A program made the position numbers and the translations under genes. Shown one piece after another: positions 4,243 to 11,721 of a stretch of 64,000 bases of DNA. The notes beneath the pieces were generated by a model. The model was not told the origin of the DNA and did no database searches. It was given only the letters and a program-made list of their open reading frames with translations. The number at the start of each line of letters is the position of its first letter. The stretch's first letter is position 1. This DNA comes from Thermus sp. CCB_US3_UF1 (GTDB lineage: Bacteria; Deinococcota; Deinococci; Deinococcales; Thermaceae). The stretch is from contig NC_017278.1 in assembly GCF_000236585.1 (NCBI RefSeq), positions 434,001-498,000 of the forward strand. The letters run 5' to 3'.

Positions 4243-4638
4243 ATGCGGCTCCATCACGTGGGGATTGCCGTGGAGGACCTCGAGGCAGCCAAGGCCCGCT
4301 ACCTCCTCCTGGGGTACCGGGTCCTGGCGGAGGGGGAGGTGACGGCCCAGGGGGTGCGGGTGGCCATGCTCCAGGGGGAGGGGGAGACCCTTTTGGAACT
4401 CCTCGCCCCCCTGGGGCCGGATACCCCTGTGGGCCGCTTTTTGGCCAAGCGGGGCCCCGGGCTTCACCACCTGGCCTTCGCCACGCCCCGGATCCTCGAG
4501 GACCTGGCCCGGCTTCGCCAGGAGGGGGCCCAGGCCATTGACGAAACCCCCCGGCCGGGCTTTGGCGGCCACCGGGTGGCCTTTCTGCACCCCTCCTTCG
4601 GCCTGGGGGTGCTCTGGGAGCTGGTGGAAGAGGCATGA
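4243..4638 (+). CDS. mce: Methylmalonyl-CoA epimerase (VOC/glyoxalase fold)
   Basis: A 131-residue vicinal-oxygen-chelate protein. It converts between (R)- and (S)-methylmalonyl-CoA in propionate and branched-chain metabolism. The N-terminal LHHVGIAVEDL and central GLHHLAFATP carry two expected metal-binding histidines, and the C-terminal LGVLWELVEE carries the glutamate ligand; the length is normal for the family. The last 4 nt overlap the start of the VanZ-like gene. No methylmalonyl-CoA mutase gene lies in the window. Confidence 0.85.
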   Translation: MRLHHVGIAVEDLEAAKARYLLLGYRVLAEGEVTAQGVRVAMLQGEGETLLELLAPLGPDTPVGRFLAKRGPGLHHLAFATPRILEDLARLRQEGAQAIDETPRPGFGGHRVAFLHPSFGLGVLWELVEEA

Positions 4639-4976
4639 GGCGCCCCTGGGCCCTGGTCCTGGCCCTTCTCCACATGGGCCTCCTCTTCTGGCTTTCCCAC
4701 CAGCCCGCCACGGGGGCGGGCCTCCCCCACCCTTGGGACAAGGCCGCCCACTTCCTGGCCTACCTCCTCTTGGGCGGGCTTCTGGGCCTCGGCCTAGGCC
4801 GCTGGCGGGCCGCCTTCCTCGGGGCCTTCCTCTACGGGGTGGGGGACGAGTGGCACCAAAGCTTCATCCCTGGCCGGGAGGCCTTCGGCTGGGACCTGGT
4901 GGCCGATGCCCTGGGGGCCTGGGTGGGGGCTAGGTGGGGGGGTAGATGGGAAGCTCCAGAAGCCTCCCTCCCCTAG
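4635..4976 (+). CDS. VanZ-family membrane protein
   Basis: A 113-residue membrane protein with about three hydrophobic segments. The phrases FWLSHQP, DKAAHFLAYLLLGGLLG and DEWHQSFIPGREAFGWDLVADALGA are the typical VanZ signature (the conserved H, DK and D residues). VanZ proteins are linked to glycopeptide resistance in enterococci, but the function of stand-alone bacterial forms is not known. The gene overlaps mce by 4 nt at its start, and its last 47 nt overlap the end of the convergent SDR gene. Confidence 0.8.
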   Translation: MRRPWALVLALLHMGLLFWLSHQPATGAGLPHPWDKAAHFLAYLLLGGLLGLGLGRWRAAFLGAFLYGVGDEWHQSFIPGREAFGWDLVADALGAWVGARWGGRWEAPEASLP

Positions 4977-5613
4977 CCGAGGCGGCTAGGACGATGGCCT
5001 CGGCCAGGAACTCGGGGGCGATCCAGCGACTGGGGTCGGCCTCGGGCATGGCCCGGCGGTTGGCCTCGGTGTCCAGGGTGCCCATGGGGTAAACCACGAG
5101 GAAGCGCACCCCCTCCACCTCCCCCTGCAGGGAGCGGAGGAGGCTGGCCAGGGCGGTCTTGGCCACGGTGTAGAGGACCCGGCCCGGCCCGCTCCCCGTC
5201 CAGGCGGGCCCGGCGGCGATGGCGGCAAAGAAGCCCTCCCCTCGCCGTTCCATGTAGGGGAGGACGGCCCGCAGGAGGTTGTAGGTGGTGCGCAGGTTGA
5301 GGTCCAGCATCCAGTCGTAAAGCCCGGGGTCCGAGTCCAGGAAGCGCCCGGCGGCGAAGCCGCCCACGGTGTGCACCACCCCGTGGAGGGGGGCCTGGCG
5401 TTCCACGAAGCGGGCCAGGGCCTCGGCCTCCTCGAGGCGGGTCAGGTCGGCCACAAAGGTCTCCGCCCCCACCCCTTGGGCCCGTTCCGCCATGCGCTCG
5501 GGACGGGGGTCGGAGAGGAACAGCCTGGCCCCCGCCCGGTGCAGGGCAGGGATGACCGCCCGGGCCAAGGCCCCGCCCGCCCCCGTGACCAAAAAGGCTT
5601 TGCCCTGGAGCAT
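4930..5613 (-). CDS. Short-chain dehydrogenase/reductase (SDR family)
   Basis: A 227-residue classical SDR. The N-terminal VTGAGGALARAV is the TGxxxGxG nucleotide-binding motif, and YTVAK is the catalytic YxxxK pair. The substrate is not evident; the short length and overall shape recall dihydropteridine-reductase-like SDRs. It is the last gene of the minus-strand operon that starts with the two Lpt-type permeases, 4 nt after the lipoprotein gene. Whether it modifies the cargo of that transport system is only a guess. Confidence 0.82.
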   Translation of the reverse strand: MLQGKAFLVTGAGGALARAVIPALHRAGARLFLSDPRPERMAERAQGVGAETFVADLTRLEEAEALARFVERQAPLHGVVHTVGGFAAGRFLDSDPGLYDWMLDLNLRTTYNLLRAVLPYMERRGEGFFAAIAAGPAWTGSGPGRVLYTVAKTALASLLRSLQGEVEGVRFLVVYPMGTLDTEANRRAMPEADPSRWIAPEFLAEAIVLAASARGGRLLELPIYPPT

Positions 5614-5617
5614 GGCC

Positions 5618-6604
5618 TCATTCTACGGGGATGAAGGCCAGGGCGCTGGGGCTAAAGCCCAGGAGGGCGGTGGCCTGGGGCGAGGCCGGGAAGGGGTTGG
5701 CCTGGAGGTCGTAGACCTCCAATAGGTTCCCCCGGGCCAGGTACAGGTAGGCGTCCTGGCCCACCAGCCCCGCCCCATAGGTGGAAAAGCCCTGACGGGG
5801 CCCGGAGTCCTGGGGCTCCAGGGCGCGGAAGCCCCCGCCGTAGGCCGCCAGGCCTTGGACCGGGTCCAGGGCCAGCCGCACCGCTCCCTGGAGTCCAAGG
5901 GACGGGGTGTTAGGGGAGGTTCCCTCCCAGCGGACCAGGTAGGTTTCCGTGGCCCCACGGCCCGCCCCCAGGAGGCGGCCCCGGATTGGGTCCAGCCGGA
6001 GGTCGCTGGGGGTGAAGGCAAGGCCCAGGGCCGCTTCCCCTTTGGGGCTTCCCGTGGGGTTGCTGGGAGGGCGGTAGCCCAAGACGGTATCGGTGAGGTA
6101 GGCCAAAAGCTCCAGGGTGTTTTGGGGGTAGAGGGCCAGGCGGCTTCCTGGGGGCAGGCCCGTGAGGTCGGCCTCCTCCTGGTTTCCCAGGTCCGCCAGG
6201 TTCAGCAGGAAGGCCCGGCCCGCCCCGGGGCAGTGGACCAAAAGCCGGTTCTGCCCCAGGCGCAGGTAGCCCCCGGTGCAGTCCGCGGGCAAGGGGGCAG
6301 ACAGGGGGGGAGCTTGGGGGGCGGCGTTTTCCGTAAAGCCCTGGGTGGCGTAGGCCTCCACCCGGTCGGGGAAAAGCAGGTAAAGCCGCCCCGAGGCGTT
6401 GCTGTAGGCCAGGTCCTGAAGGCCCGGGGTGTTCCAAGTGCCCACGGGGCTCCCCGCGCCCCCCTGCAGGTCCTGGGCGCGGAAGAAGCGCACCTGGCCC
6501 TCCCCTCCTGCGGCCACCAGGGCGGGCAGGAGGGGCTCTTGGCTGCCCGTGCAGGCGTAGAGGCCCAGGAGGAGGAAGGGGAAGAGGCGGAAGAGGCTTC
6601 TCAC
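5618..6604 (-). CDS. Lipoprotein with propeller-like repeats, in the Lpt-like operon
   Basis: A 328-residue protein. The GTG start at 6604 is chosen because it overlaps the upstream stop codon as GTGA, like the other junctions here, and because it opens a lipoprotein signal: a hydrophobic stretch ending in LYAC with Cys at residue 18. The mature part has several degenerate repeats of about 40-45 residues (LQDLAYSNASGRLYLLFPDRVEAY, LRLDPIRGRLLGAG, LALDPVQGLAAYGG, LYLARGNLLEVYDLQ are examples of the repeating pattern), suggesting a beta-propeller. It follows the LptD-like gene directly, where other bacteria would need the lipoprotein LptE; it does not resemble LptE. Confidence 0.7.
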   Translation of the reverse strand: MRSLFRLFPFLLLGLYACTGSQEPLLPALVAAGGEGQVRFFRAQDLQGGAGSPVGTWNTPGLQDLAYSNASGRLYLLFPDRVEAYATQGFTENAAPQAPPLSAPLPADCTGGYLRLGQNRLLVHCPGAGRAFLLNLADLGNQEEADLTGLPPGSRLALYPQNTLELLAYLTDTVLGYRPPSNPTGSPKGEAALGLAFTPSDLRLDPIRGRLLGAGRGATETYLVRWEGTSPNTPSLGLQGAVRLALDPVQGLAAYGGGFRALEPQDSGPRQGFSTYGAGLVGQDAYLYLARGNLLEVYDLQANPFPASPQATALLGFSPSALAFIPVE

Positions 6605-9081
6605 CGCGTACCTCCCAGTTGGATGCCCTCCTCGGAAAGGAGGAGGCCCGCCGCCTGCCCCCCGTAGAGGAAGGCCAGGCCCAGGCTGCCCTTTTGCGCG
6701 TCCAGGGTGAAGCGCAGGGCCCAGCAGCAACGGTCCAGGACCAGGACGAAGCGGGGCCTCAGGGCTTCCCCCGGCAGGTTCTGGCTGAGGAGGGCGGCCA
6801 GGTGGAGCTTGGTCCTTTCCCGGCCCACGAAGGTGAGGGTGGGGCCGAAGTTGCGCAGGGCCAGGGTGTACCCCTCGGGCCTCGAGGGCTGCCTGGTGTA
6901 GGTGAAGGCCCCGGAGAGGGCTAGCCCCGGGATGGCCCCTTCCCCTTTCTCGTCCGCGGGGGTGGGGGGCCAGAGCTCCGCTCCCCCGCTGAAGGTGGCG
7001 TCCTTCAGGTACACCCCCTCGTCCCCCACCTCCGGCAGGTGCAGGTTGGCCGTGAGGCGGAAGCCCACCTCGGGCAGGGCCTGGACCAGGCTCAGGCGGA
7101 GGTTGGTCCCCCTTGGGCCCTCCTGGTAGCGCCCGGAAAGCTGCAGCTCCCCCAGGGGGCCGGGGGCCGTTCCGCTGCGGAACCCCAGGGTGTAGCCCAG
7201 GGCCTGGCGGTCCAGGCTGGCCTGCAGGGAGAGGCTTTCCGGGCCCCAGATGGCCTGGCCCTGGAGGCCCAGGGTGTCCTGCCGCCAGTCCCGGCGGGCC
7301 TGGAGGGTGTAGGCGCTTGTGCCCTCCCTTAGGCTCAGGGCCAGGTCCGTGGTCAGGGCCCCCTCACCGTTTAGGCCGTGGCGGTGGCTTAGGTTGAGGC
7401 TTCCCCCCGGGAGGGCGTAGCCGGCCTGGAGGGCCAGGGGGTCAAAAACCTCCTTGGTGTGGTCATAGCGGAGGCTCATCCGGAGGGAGAAGGGGTAAGG
7501 GGTGAGGCTTCCCTCGGCCCGGGTTTCCAGGGGGCCCTCCCCGGAAAGCCCCCGGCGGTGGACCAGGCTGAGGGCGTAGCCTGCATCCTGGAGGCCGGCC
7601 TGGGCCTCCAGGGGCAGGTACTTGCCCGCTTCCAGATCCCGGCCCGTGCGCAGGGCTAGGTTGAGGGGCCTTTCCTGGAAAGCCAGGGCCAAGGTGGCCT
7701 GGTGGCTTCGCCGCTGGGGTAGGGCGTCAAAGCGGAAGGGGCTTTCCCCCTCCTGAAGGCTCCGGCCATAGCCCAGCTCGGCGCTTACCCCCCCTAGGGC
7801 CTGGCGGAAGCTGGCCGTGGTGGTCCAGTCCACCTGGCGCTCGTACTCCCCGTCCGGGTTTTGCGTGGTGTAGTAGAAGCCCCGGAAGCGGTTTTCCAGC
7901 CGCAGGCTGGCCCCAGTCCAGGGGGTGAGGAGGAGGCTTTCCCCGTGGGTGAGGAGGGCCCGCCCTGCCTCCCCGTAGGGGCCCAGGGCCCGGGCCGAAC
8001 GGTTTAGGGGGTTGGTCTCCGCCAGGTAGCGGCCCAGGACCAGGCTGGCCTGCAGACTGAAGGGGCCCTCGCGCAGGGTGGGGGTCTGGGCCTCCAGCTC
8101 CGGCAGGCGTTGCAGGCTGCGGGGCGGGGGGGTGGTGGGGTCGTGGTCCAGGAAGCCTTCCAGGCGTAGGGCGTAGCGCCAGTCCCCAGGGGTGGGGGTG
8201 CCGGGGAGGAGGGCTTCCAGGCGGAAGCGGGAGAGCTTTTCCCGGGTATCGTCCCGCTCCAGGAGGGCAGAGAGGGCGAACTCGGGCCGCTTCAGGCCGT
8301 ACTCCCCCCGGTACTGGAAGGTGTCTGGGGGGGTGTGGAGGAAGAAGTAGCGTTCCTTGGCCTCCCCGGTGCCGAAGTGGTCCAGGCCGAAGCCATAGCC
8401 CCGCCCGGCGTAGTAGTGGAGGAGGGTGTAGCCCAGGCCCAGGGGGGAAACGTAGGGCAGGGCGGCCTTTAGGTAGGCACCGCCTTCGTCCTGGCCCAGC
8501 TCCAGCCGGGGGCGGCGCTCGGAAAGGTAAAGGAGGAGGACGGGGAGTTCCAGCACGGGCTTCTCCCCCATGAGGAGCACCACCCCCCGGGCCACCACCC
8601 GGTCCCCGGGGTAGAGGAGGATCTCCCGGGCGCGGAAGGCGTAGTCGGGCACCTCCTGCCCGCACCCGGCGCAAGGGGTGGCGTACCCCCTCTCTAGCAG
8701 GATGGCCCCCGCCGCCCGCTGGCATAGGGGCCCGGTGAGGAGGAGGTCTTTGGCCTCTATGCGCACTTCCAGGGCGTCAAAGCTCTCGTCCCCTAGGTCA
8801 ATTTGCAGCTCCTCGGCCTCGATCCGCCGCCCCTCCCGGTCCAGGTAGCGCACCTCCCCGGAGAGGAAAAGGAGCCTCCGCCCGCGGAAGTAGACCACCC
8901 GCAGGGCCTGGATGGCCTCCCCTTCCCGCTCCAGGCGCACGGGGTTACCCGTGAGCACGTACACCTCCTCCCCCCCGTCCTGCCTCAGTTCCAGCCGCTC
9001 GGCCTCCAGGACCTTGAGGGCCTTCTCCTGGGCCCAGGCCGGGGCCAGGAGGAAGAGGAGGAGCCAAAGCCACGGCCTCAC
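6601..9081 (-). CDS. LptD/OstA-like outer-membrane assembly protein
   Basis: An 826-residue secreted protein. Residues 1-17 are a signal peptide ending AWA. Residues 18 to about 130 form an OstA/LptA-like beta-jellyroll domain (LEAERLELRQDGGEEVYVL, EAIQALRVVYFRGRR). ATPCAGC...PDYAFRAREI followed by LPVLLLYLSERR matches the conserved start of the LptD barrel domain. The rest alternates amphipathic strands as in a large beta-barrel. LptD inserts LPS into the outer membrane, but Thermus is known to lack LPS, so the cargo here must differ. The GTG start overlaps the stop of the permease gene upstream. Confidence 0.82.
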   Translation of the reverse strand: MRPWLWLLLFLLAPAWAQEKALKVLEAERLELRQDGGEEVYVLTGNPVRLEREGEAIQALRVVYFRGRRLLFLSGEVRYLDREGRRIEAEELQIDLGDESFDALEVRIEAKDLLLTGPLCQRAAGAILLERGYATPCAGCGQEVPDYAFRAREILLYPGDRVVARGVVLLMGEKPVLELPVLLLYLSERRPRLELGQDEGGAYLKAALPYVSPLGLGYTLLHYYAGRGYGFGLDHFGTGEAKERYFFLHTPPDTFQYRGEYGLKRPEFALSALLERDDTREKLSRFRLEALLPGTPTPGDWRYALRLEGFLDHDPTTPPPRSLQRLPELEAQTPTLREGPFSLQASLVLGRYLAETNPLNRSARALGPYGEAGRALLTHGESLLLTPWTGASLRLENRFRGFYYTTQNPDGEYERQVDWTTTASFRQALGGVSAELGYGRSLQEGESPFRFDALPQRRSHQATLALAFQERPLNLALRTGRDLEAGKYLPLEAQAGLQDAGYALSLVHRRGLSGEGPLETRAEGSLTPYPFSLRMSLRYDHTKEVFDPLALQAGYALPGGSLNLSHRHGLNGEGALTTDLALSLREGTSAYTLQARRDWRQDTLGLQGQAIWGPESLSLQASLDRQALGYTLGFRSGTAPGPLGELQLSGRYQEGPRGTNLRLSLVQALPEVGFRLTANLHLPEVGDEGVYLKDATFSGGAELWPPTPADEKGEGAIPGLALSGAFTYTRQPSRPEGYTLALRNFGPTLTFVGRERTKLHLAALLSQNLPGEALRPRFVLVLDRCCWALRFTLDAQKGSLGLAFLYGGQAAGLLLSEEGIQLGGTR

Positions 9082-10121
9082 CGCCGCCCTCCTAGGAAGA
9101 GGAGAAGGCCCAGGGCCCCGTAGACCAGGTTGGGCCCCCAGGCGGCCAGGAGGGGGTCCAGGGCGTTCTGCTCCCCCATGATCCGCCCCACGCTCCAGGT
9201 GGCGTAGTAGAAGAAGGTGAGGACCGCCACCCCCACCAGGCCCAGGCTGCGCGATCCCCCGAGGAGGTAGAAGGCCAGGCCCACGGCGAAGAGGGCGAAG
9301 ACCAGGGCCGCGGCGGGCTCGGCGTAGCGGCGGTAGTAGGTGGTGGCCTCGAGGCCCGCCTTCACCCCCTGGGCCCGCAGGCGTTCTACCTCCTGGCGCA
9401 GCTGGGCCAGGCCCATGCGGTTGGCGGGGTTCTGCCAGGGCTCAAAGGTCAGGTCCTTGAGCACCAGCTCCCCCCGTTGGAAGCGGGTCAGGGTCCGGGG
9501 CCGGTCCCCCTCGTAGGTCACCCGCTGGCCCCCCCCTACCTGGAGCACCCCGCCCGAAAAGCGTCCCGCCTCGGCCAAGACCACCTCTTCCCGGGAGAGC
9601 ACGCGGAGCTTCCCGATCCGCTCCCCCGCCACCTCCCCCACATAGACCACCCGGCCCTTGGCGTCCTGGAAGGTGGTCCCCGGGGTGAGGAGGGCCCGGG
9701 GACGCTCCAAAACCTGCCGCCTCAGGAGGTCCTGACCCTCGGCCAAGGCCCTGGGCACCAGGCTCTCCCCCAGGAGGAGGCCCAGGAGGGAAAGGGCCCC
9801 GCCCAGGAAGAGGAAGGGCAGGAGAACCCGCTCCCGCCTGACCCCAAGGGCCAGGAGGGCCTTGAGCTCCGAGTCCTCGGCCATGCGGGAGAGGAGGAGG
9901 AGGAGGGCGAAGAGGTAGGCCACCGGGGCTCCCCGCACCAGGGCCTCGGGGGTGCGGTAGAGGAGGTAGAGGAGGAGGGTGGCGGGGTCGGCCCCCTTGG
10001 CCACCAGGGGGGCCAGGACCTCGTAGACCGCCCCCGCCAGGAAGAGGAGGACGATGACGCCAAGCCCCAGGGCGAAGAGGCCCAGGGCTTCCCGCAGGAG
10101 GTACCGGTCCAGGGTCTTCAC
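9078..10121 (-). CDS. lptG-like: LptF/LptG-family permease (second copy)
   Basis: A 347-residue inner-membrane permease. The GTG start at 10121 is chosen because it overlaps the upstream stop as GTGA and gives the family N-terminus VKTLDRYLLREALGLF. There are three N-terminal membrane helices, a periplasmic beta-rich domain (about residues 130-250) and three C-terminal helices, the usual LptF/LptG plan. SELKALLALGVRRERVL is the cytoplasmic coupling helix. With the neighbouring permease it would form a heterodimer powered by an LptB-type ATPase, which is not in this window. Confidence 0.88.
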   Translation of the reverse strand: MKTLDRYLLREALGLFALGLGVIVLLFLAGAVYEVLAPLVAKGADPATLLLYLLYRTPEALVRGAPVAYLFALLLLLSRMAEDSELKALLALGVRRERVLLPFLFLGGALSLLGLLLGESLVPRALAEGQDLLRRQVLERPRALLTPGTTFQDAKGRVVYVGEVAGERIGKLRVLSREEVVLAEAGRFSGGVLQVGGGQRVTYEGDRPRTLTRFQRGELVLKDLTFEPWQNPANRMGLAQLRQEVERLRAQGVKAGLEATTYYRRYAEPAAALVFALFAVGLAFYLLGGSRSLGLVGVAVLTFFYYATWSVGRIMGEQNALDPLLAAWGPNLVYGALGLLLFLGGRR

Positions 10122-11128
10122 CGCAACCTCCAGGTGAGCCCAAGGGCCAAGGCGGCGAAGGCGCCGTTGGGCAGGAAGGCCCACAAGGGGTTCACGTCGT
10201 AGCGGGCAAGCTGGGCCGAAAAGGTCCAGAGGACGTAGTAGCCGAAGATGAGGAGGACGATGCTGAGGAAGGCCCAGGCGGCCTCGCGGAAGGAAAGCCC
10301 CAAGGCCGCGGCCACCCAGGCCAGGAAAAACCCCCCCAGGGCGTCGGCCAGACGGCGGGCCAGGGCGAAGCGGGCCCCGCTTTCCACCTTGCCCCGTTCC
10401 CAAAGCTCCCCTAGGGTGCTGGTGTCGTAGGGGTCGCGGGAGCCCAGGCTTTCCTTGGGGCGGAACTGGGCGGGGAAGGGGAGGGTGCCCTGGAAGGGCT
10501 TGAGCCGCCCCCCTTCCAGCACATACCCCCGGAAGTGCCAGCCCTCGGCGTCCCAGACCCCTTCCGCCCCGCTATAGACCCTTCCCTGTGGGTCCACCAC
10601 CCGCACCCCGAAAAGGCGGTTCTGGCCCACCTCGGGGCGCACCTCCTCGGCGTAGTACACCCCTAGGCCCGGGGGGGCGTAGAGCTGCTGGCGCAAGACC
10701 CCGCTCAGGCCCCCTTCCCCGTAAAGGAGGCGGGCCAGGTGGGCGTCGTAGGCCTCGAGGGCCCTGGGGCGGAGCTCGGCCAGGTTGGCCAGGTTGAGGA
10801 GGCTTACCCCCAGGGCCAGAAGCCCTAGGGGCTTGAGGAGGGCCCAAGGGGGCACCCCGGCGGCGTAGGCGGCCTTGAGCTCCGAGTGGCGGATGAGGCG
10901 GGCAAGCCCCACCAGGATGGCGAAGACCAGGCCCAGGGGCAGGGCCAGGCTCAGGGTCCAGGGGAGGCGGAGGAGGATGAGCCGGCCAATGGCCTCCACC
11001 CCTACCCCCCGGCTCAGGAGGACGCCGGAGAGGCTGGAGAGGAGGTCAAAGGTGAGAAGGGCTACGAAAAGGAAGACCCCCACCAGGTAGGGGACCAGGA
11101 CCTCCTTGAGGGCGTACCGGCCCAACAC
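10118..11128 (-). CDS. lptF-like: LptF/LptG-family permease (first copy)
   Basis: A 336-residue permease and the first gene of the operon. It begins LGRYALKEVLVPYLVGVFLF, has three N-terminal and three C-terminal membrane helices, and contains SELKAAYAAGVPPWALL, the family's coupling helix. The start is GTG, 7 nt after a -10 box. Its stop codon overlaps the GTG of the second permease. Together the two resemble the LptFG pair that extracts lipid-linked glycans from the inner membrane. Confidence 0.88.
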   Translation of the reverse strand: MLGRYALKEVLVPYLVGVFLFVALLTFDLLSSLSGVLLSRGVGVEAIGRLILLRLPWTLSLALPLGLVFAILVGLARLIRHSELKAAYAAGVPPWALLKPLGLLALGVSLLNLANLAELRPRALEAYDAHLARLLYGEGGLSGVLRQQLYAPPGLGVYYAEEVRPEVGQNRLFGVRVVDPQGRVYSGAEGVWDAEGWHFRGYVLEGGRLKPFQGTLPFPAQFRPKESLGSRDPYDTSTLGELWERGKVESGARFALARRLADALGGFFLAWVAAALGLSFREAAWAFLSIVLLIFGYYVLWTFSAQLARYDVNPLWAFLPNGAFAALALGLTWRLR

Positions 11129-11167: not shown

Positions 11168-11580
11168 CTAGGGCTGGGCCACCACGTGGATCACCGGCAA
11201 GCCGAAGCGCTCCGCTTGGGTGTGCACGTCCAGCCTCAGCCAGCGGGAAAGCCCTGGGGGCAGGGTGGCCAGGACGATGGCCTGGTAGGTCCCGGGGTGG
11301 GCCTGGAGCTCCTCCTCCAGGGCCAGTAGGGGAGAGATGTCCCCGGGTTTGGCCTCCTCCACGGGGATGCCCTGGGCCTCGAGGGCCGCCTTGGCCCCCT
11401 GGGCCTCCCTTTGGGCTTGGGCCTCCACCTCCCCCTCCTCGTATACCCAGCCTGGGGGGGTACGGCGGGCACCAGGAGGACGAAGCGGGCCTCGGGGTCT
11501 TGGGCCTGGATCTCCTGCAGTTTCTCGGCCAACTCCCGGCTTTTGGCTGTGCGGTGAGCCACCACCAGGTACCGGGCCAT
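11168..11580 (-). pseudogene. Universal-stress-like small protein, broken by a 1-base frameshift at a run of seven C
   Basis: The ATG at 11580 opens MARYLVVAHRTAKSRELAEKL, which runs in frame to LLVPAVPP. At a homopolymer (seven C on the minus strand, 11454-11460) the coding signal moves to another frame, continuing PGWVYEEGEVEAQAQ and ending LPVIHVVAQP at 11168. With eight C the product would be 137 residues with a plausible nucleotide-binding (USP/HUP-like) alpha/beta pattern. It could be a sequencing or assembly error, a real phase-variable mutation or slippage. The family assignment is tentative. Confidence 0.6.
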
Positions 11581-11721
11581 AGGCCACCTCCTTATCCCTT
11601 CCCCTTCAGGCTAGCCCTCCTAGGGGAGGGAAGGGCACATTGCCCAAATGGGATGGATTTTGACCTACTTCGGATAGGCCGGTGAAAGACCCGTGGAGGA
11701 GGGGATTTATCGCATACCACT

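Follow-up and report, generated by a model that had tools for sequence, protein, structure and literature searches.

An lptF-lptG-lptD operon in a Thermus genome without detected lipid A or Kdo genes: a probable Lpt-type exporter of non-LPS glycolipid

How the outer leaflet is built in diderm bacteria that have no LPS is an open question, which we address here through an operon of Thermus. Among the closest known machines is the Lpt system of E. coli (LptB2FGC-LptA-LptDE), with which Thermus shares the LptF and LptG permeases, the LptB ATPase and an LptA-type bridge. It departs from the E. coli system in that neither LptE nor LPS genes were detected, two LptA-type proteins are encoded and lptF, lptG and lptD lie together in one operon. 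Borrelia burgdorferi offers another comparison, since it too is a diderm with an Lpt system but without LPS, for which a glycolipid cargo has been proposed (PMC10353723). It belongs, however, to another phylum, and Thermus, in contrast, has relatives that keep lipid A genes, so that the loss of lpx genes from lineages that kept Lpt can be followed inside a single phylum. The same paper mentions Lpt orthologs in Thermus thermophilus and Thermotoga maritima, citing Putker et al. 2015, as well as the unusual glycolipids of T. thermophilus (PMC10353723); the T. thermophilus orthologs are presumably the machine described here, and the passage concerned mentions them without operon anatomy, LptD structure or a survey of the phylum. 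A 2016 study inferred that the ancestor of Deinococcus/Thermus carried LPS and that some members have lost it (PMC5007114), and a 2022 survey described atypical diderms with a "reduced" Lpt system (LptA, B, C, F and G) that has no lptD or lptE (PMC8871954). Given that Lpt without LPS, in Borrelia and by mention in Thermus, and an LPS-bearing ancestor have already been published, the general idea is not new. What we add is the presence of LptD and its larger predicted barrel, a propeller lipoprotein where LptE is missing, and the pattern of retention across the phylum.

The window, that is, the whole stretch of 64,000 nucleotides that we analyzed (G000:C2:434001-498000), comes from a 2.26-Mb genome with two contigs. 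The preliminary description had read an LptF-LptG-LptD operon with GTGA overlaps from this DNA, and its reading was borne out by five consecutive genes on the minus strand (Table 1), by the family scores of the two permeases and by the fold of the LptD-like protein. GTGA overlaps occur at three junctions (lptF/lptG, lptG/lptD and lptD/lipoprotein), whereas the lipoprotein and SDR genes do not overlap, a TGA being followed by a 4-base gap and an ATG. The order lptF-lptG-lptD is common to the Thermaceae, to families f4 and f3 and to the Trueperaceae-type loci of family f5, and this recurrence across the phylum indicates that the arrangement is not due to chance.

Table 1. Features of the lpt operon, in window positions
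Feature	Position	Strand	Evidence
lptF-type ABC permease gene (336 aa), operon gene 1	10118..11128	-	PF03739, 175 bits; LptF/LptG are the closest solved relatives
lptG-type ABC permease gene (347 aa)	9078..10121	-	PF03739, 251 bits; GTGA overlap with lptF
lptD gene (826 aa; signal peptide 1-17)	6601..9081	-	AlphaFold model and PDB fold matches; GTGA overlap with lptG
LptD N-terminal periplasmic all-beta domain (OstA/LptA-like), approximate limits	8572..9030	-	Model strands; weak profile matches to LptD/LptA N-domains
LptD C137xxC140, invariant cysteines	8662..8673	-	Alignments A1 and A3; hhalign with E. coli LptD
LptD beta-barrel region (about 38 strands predicted; limits approximate)	6664..8508	-	DSSP of the model
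LptD C785-C786, invariant pair (DRCCWAL)	6724..6729	-	Alignment; comparison with E. coli LptD
Lipoprotein gene (328 aa; lipobox LYAC at residue 18)	5618..6604	-	Beta-propeller model; GTGA overlap with lptD
SDR oxidoreductase gene (227 aa), last, downstream of the lipoprotein	4930..5613	-	PF00106, 72 bits

Both permeases matched PF03739 over its full length, with scores (Table 1) to be read against a curated cut-off of 27.9 bits. When a profile of the LptG-type family was compared with solved structures, only LptF and LptG chains were matched. The two genes of the operon are the only PF03739 genes in the whole genome. A further LptF/LptG-type permease gene, about 390 codons long and standing apart, makes three in most Deinococcota genomes (for example, G049:C106:1779878-1780966 and G009:C1:451339-452436), while the present genome has two only.

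The protein encoded by the third gene matched no Pfam or NCBIfam family at an E value of 0.1 and no PHROGs entry, and a single-sequence search of the PDB did not identify it; a profile of its family gave weak matches to the N-domains of LptD and LptA. Because a Pfam LptD or LptD_N match is a criterion of detection and not of structure, we used the fold match in its place. The AlphaFold model, built from 38 sequences, is nearly all beta and has a mean pLDDT of 87.4. Searching 350,542 PDB chains with this model returned LptD for all of the top 37 matches, with E values down to 9.4e-19 and with the best matches extending over some 700 to 790 alignment columns. By its modeled structure the protein is thus an LptD, with a beta-taco domain predicted at the N terminus and an outer-membrane barrel behind it. 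Superposition on known LptD structures nevertheless gave low TM-scores (0.2 to 0.35) and a high rmsd (13 to 18 Å), indicating that the overall shape of the barrel either differs or is mis-modeled. Proteobacterial LptD barrels have 26 strands, whereas about 38 are predicted here; a barrel enlarged to this extent would account for the poor overall fit, although a modeling artifact is possible.

In both Thermus and E. coli, LptD combines a periplasmic beta domain at the N terminus with a barrel at the C terminus and has cysteine pairs, yet by sequence alone the two proteins resemble each other weakly (E of about 0.008 for one comparison). Four cysteines, C137, C140, C785 and C786, are invariant in the 25 Deinococcota homologues that were aligned. 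In hhalign, C137 fell on C173 of E. coli LptD (stretch GYATPC versus NGSFTSC), and the motif containing C785-C786 is equivalent to SSCCYAI of E. coli (C724-C725). The second N-domain cysteine is placed differently in the two proteins, lying in a CxxC in Thermus and at the N terminus in E. coli (C31). The N-domain pair and the C-terminal CC pair match the inter-domain disulfide pattern of LptD, with a pairing that is putative. In three Thermus genomes (G047, G051 and G052), lptD is split over frames or has internal stops, which represent either assembly errors or decay, and the LptFG matches are still there.

We then considered the distribution of these genes in 111 Deinococcota genomes (85 of the 111 of good quality, and 27 of the 111 Thermus; no named Deinococcus species was among the loci), taking the absence of a gene from profile and protein searches. 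LptFG was found in 110 of the 111 genomes and in all 85 good ones, LptD in 106 (83 of the good ones), and the LptA-type domain PF03968 in 102. For lptD, these data contradict the "reduced" system reported for the same phylum (PMC8871954), and the fact that Pfam and NCBIfam models miss this lptD probably explains its absence from that survey. Correcting the view of a reduced Lpt without LptD is relevant to the debate on how the outer membrane arose.

Other parts of the machine are encoded elsewhere in the genome, where the preliminary description had proposed to look for LptB, LptC and LptA. LptB is encoded by one gene, whose TIGR04406 score of 325.7 bits exceeds the cut-off of 240 and whose 15 best solved relatives are all LptB-type entries; among the 58 ATPase matches, the second best reached 177 bits. 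Two adjacent genes at C2:1595-1597 kb encode LptA-type proteins, the first matching PF03968 with 39.1 bits (cut-off, 20.4) and the second, a paralogue, matching it weakly. Just upstream of them lies a gene for a 185-residue protein with one N-terminal membrane span, which is kept in 100 of the 111 genomes and has an lptA-type neighbor in those cases that were compared. Neither the Pfam LptC family nor, in hhalign, E. coli LptC showed sequence similarity to this protein, so that LptB and LptA were recovered as such and LptC as a candidate, by position and topology.

LptE was found in none of the 111 genomes above the PF04390 cut-off in a profile search. The lipoprotein encoded directly after lptD is not an LptE homologue, since its model (pLDDT 94.1) has beta-propellers as fold matches. 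Most of its homologues carry a lipobox of the C-T-G-[ST] type, and two further cysteines are invariant. As the gene follows lptD both in the Thermaceae and in the sister family f4, a link to Lpt is plausible, and the lipoprotein probably works at LptD. That it perhaps stands in there for LptE is an attractive idea, by analogy with LptE in proteobacteria.

The lineage had been described as one without LPS. For Thermus this stands: this genome has no LpxC, LpxB-like protein or Kdo transferase, and neither LpxC nor an LpxB-like protein was found in any of the 27 Thermus genomes. Relatives such as Meiothermus, by contrast, carry an lpx cluster. Over the phylum, LpxC occurs in 61 of 111 genomes and an LpxB-like protein in 62; as LpxB profile matches in the relatives were short (mostly about 40 residues), a full-length relative served as the query instead. 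The Kdo transferase domain (kdtA) was detected in none of the 111 genomes. Lipid A clusters are present in the Meiothermus-like genome G033 (L083) and in genomes G009 (L087) and G083 (L093) and comprise lpxD, lpxC, a Gfo/Idh dehydrogenase gene, fabZ, lpxA, an lpxB-like gene and an MsbA-like transporter gene, not all of which were read in each; their LpxA and LpxD exceed the curated cut-offs. G083 has much of the cluster and no LpxC match. These clusters, coming without a Kdo transferase, suggest that Meiothermus and its kin may make a Kdo-free lipid A-like glycolipid. On a tree of LptF plus LptG, the presence or absence of Lpx needs three changes, at least two of them forced by well-supported branches, while Lpt stayed. 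Lpt has thus persisted through repeated losses (or gains) of lipid A genes and so does not depend on them. Lineages that kept Lpt and lost Lpx, set beside relatives that keep both, provide a natural comparison for what Lpt recognizes.

Taken together, the operon, LptB, the LptC-like protein and the LptA-type proteins are fairly likely, in our judgment, to constitute an Lpt-type trans-envelope exporter of a non-LPS glycolipid. LptF and LptG would form the inner-membrane permease pair, powered by LptB, and by homology LptB2FG would extract the lipid on the periplasmic side of the inner membrane. The single-span LptC-like protein and the two LptA-type proteins would bridge the periplasm as far as the N-domain of LptD. 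From there LptD, by way of a presumed lateral gate, would insert the lipid in the outer leaflet, perhaps with the propeller lipoprotein replacing LptE. With lipid A and Kdo genes missing from Thermus, something other than LPS should be carried, in agreement with what the preliminary description had proposed. T. thermophilus HB8 has neutral glycolipids in which a diacylglycerol glycoside bears an N-acylated glucosamine, along with an acidic glycophospholipid that carries a third alkyl chain (PMC3398001), and three-chain, sugar-headed lipids of this kind are reasonable as Lpt cargo. The cargo would most likely be a bulky multi-acyl glycolipid, such as an N-acyl-glucosamine diacylglycerol glycolipid of the NGL-A/NGL-C type or an acidic phosphoglycolipid of the AGL-B type. 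A fuller version we advance only tentatively: that Deinococcota with an enlarged LptD of about 38 strands, CxxC-to-CC disulfides and a propeller in place of LptE lost lipid A at least twice and now export N-acyl-glucosaminyl glycolipids that mimic lipid A in their multi-acyl shape. As Thermus can be cultured, is genetically tractable and has chemically known glycolipids, the question of the cargo is directly testable.

The same machine could carry an ordinary phospholipid or a lipid-linked polysaccharide, such as a cell-wall or surface glycan, instead of free glycolipids. K34, K40 and K41 of proteobacterial LptG touch lipid A or the inner core (PMC6744409), and the LptG proteins of Thermus and its relatives have Y, A and P at the aligned positions, which makes for a different binding site. 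These positions depart from E. coli in the lpx-keeping lineages as well, however, and are thus uninformative on cargo; nor did the first-helix residues of LptF and LptG, compared between lineages with and without lpx, contain an obvious cargo marker. A glycolipid cargo is the current view for Lpt systems of diderms that lack LPS (PMC10353723), and we consider a phospholipid or glycan cargo rather unlikely.

The intact machine, and the LpxA, LpxC, LpxD and LpxB-like proteins kept in most related genera, would also suit a Thermus in which a non-homologous route yields a lipid A-like LPS for export through an ordinary Lpt system. The lack of LpxC and LpxB-like proteins in all 27 Thermus genomes and the phylum-wide absence of Kdo transferase speak against such a route, as does the statement that T. 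thermophilus HB8 has no LPS, made by its authors as data not shown (PMC3398001), and we regard this as the least probable reading. Descent from an LPS-bearing ancestor of the phylum (PMC5007114) would likewise allow the machine to be a relic, either decaying or reused for a role other than lipid export, and the broken lptD frames in three Thermus genomes would fit decay. A relic is nonetheless very unlikely, given that the operon is kept in nearly all other Thermus genomes and in the sister genus, that the frames of lptF, lptG, lptD, lptB, the lptC-like gene and both lptA genes are open in this genome and that the four LptD cysteines have not varied. Export of a non-LPS glycolipid is the reading that we prefer.

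At the downstream end of the operon, the SDR gene is a less constant member. It lies within the operon only in Thermus and in genus g5, whereas Calidithermus- and Meiothermus-type loci have an SDR homologue (50% identical) a few kilobases away on the opposite strand. The SDR gene is probably cotranscribed with the operon here, but its membership is weak and its link to Lpt uncertain, and as a pathway enzyme it was downgraded because it falls outside the operon beyond these two genera. The suggestion that lipoprotein and SDR belong to the same path as the Lpt proteins therefore remains plausible for the former and weak for the latter. On the plus strand, a VanZ-family gene and a glyoxalase-like gene (window positions 4635-4976 and 4243-4638, respectively) adjoin the lpt operon in several genera. 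Upstream of lptF lies a small gene on the minus strand (11168-11587) that is read in two frames here and as a single open frame in loci L068, L069, L071 and L072. Alignment with L068, L069 and L071 places one missing base in a run of C near position 11445, which is either a sequencing error or a real frameshift.
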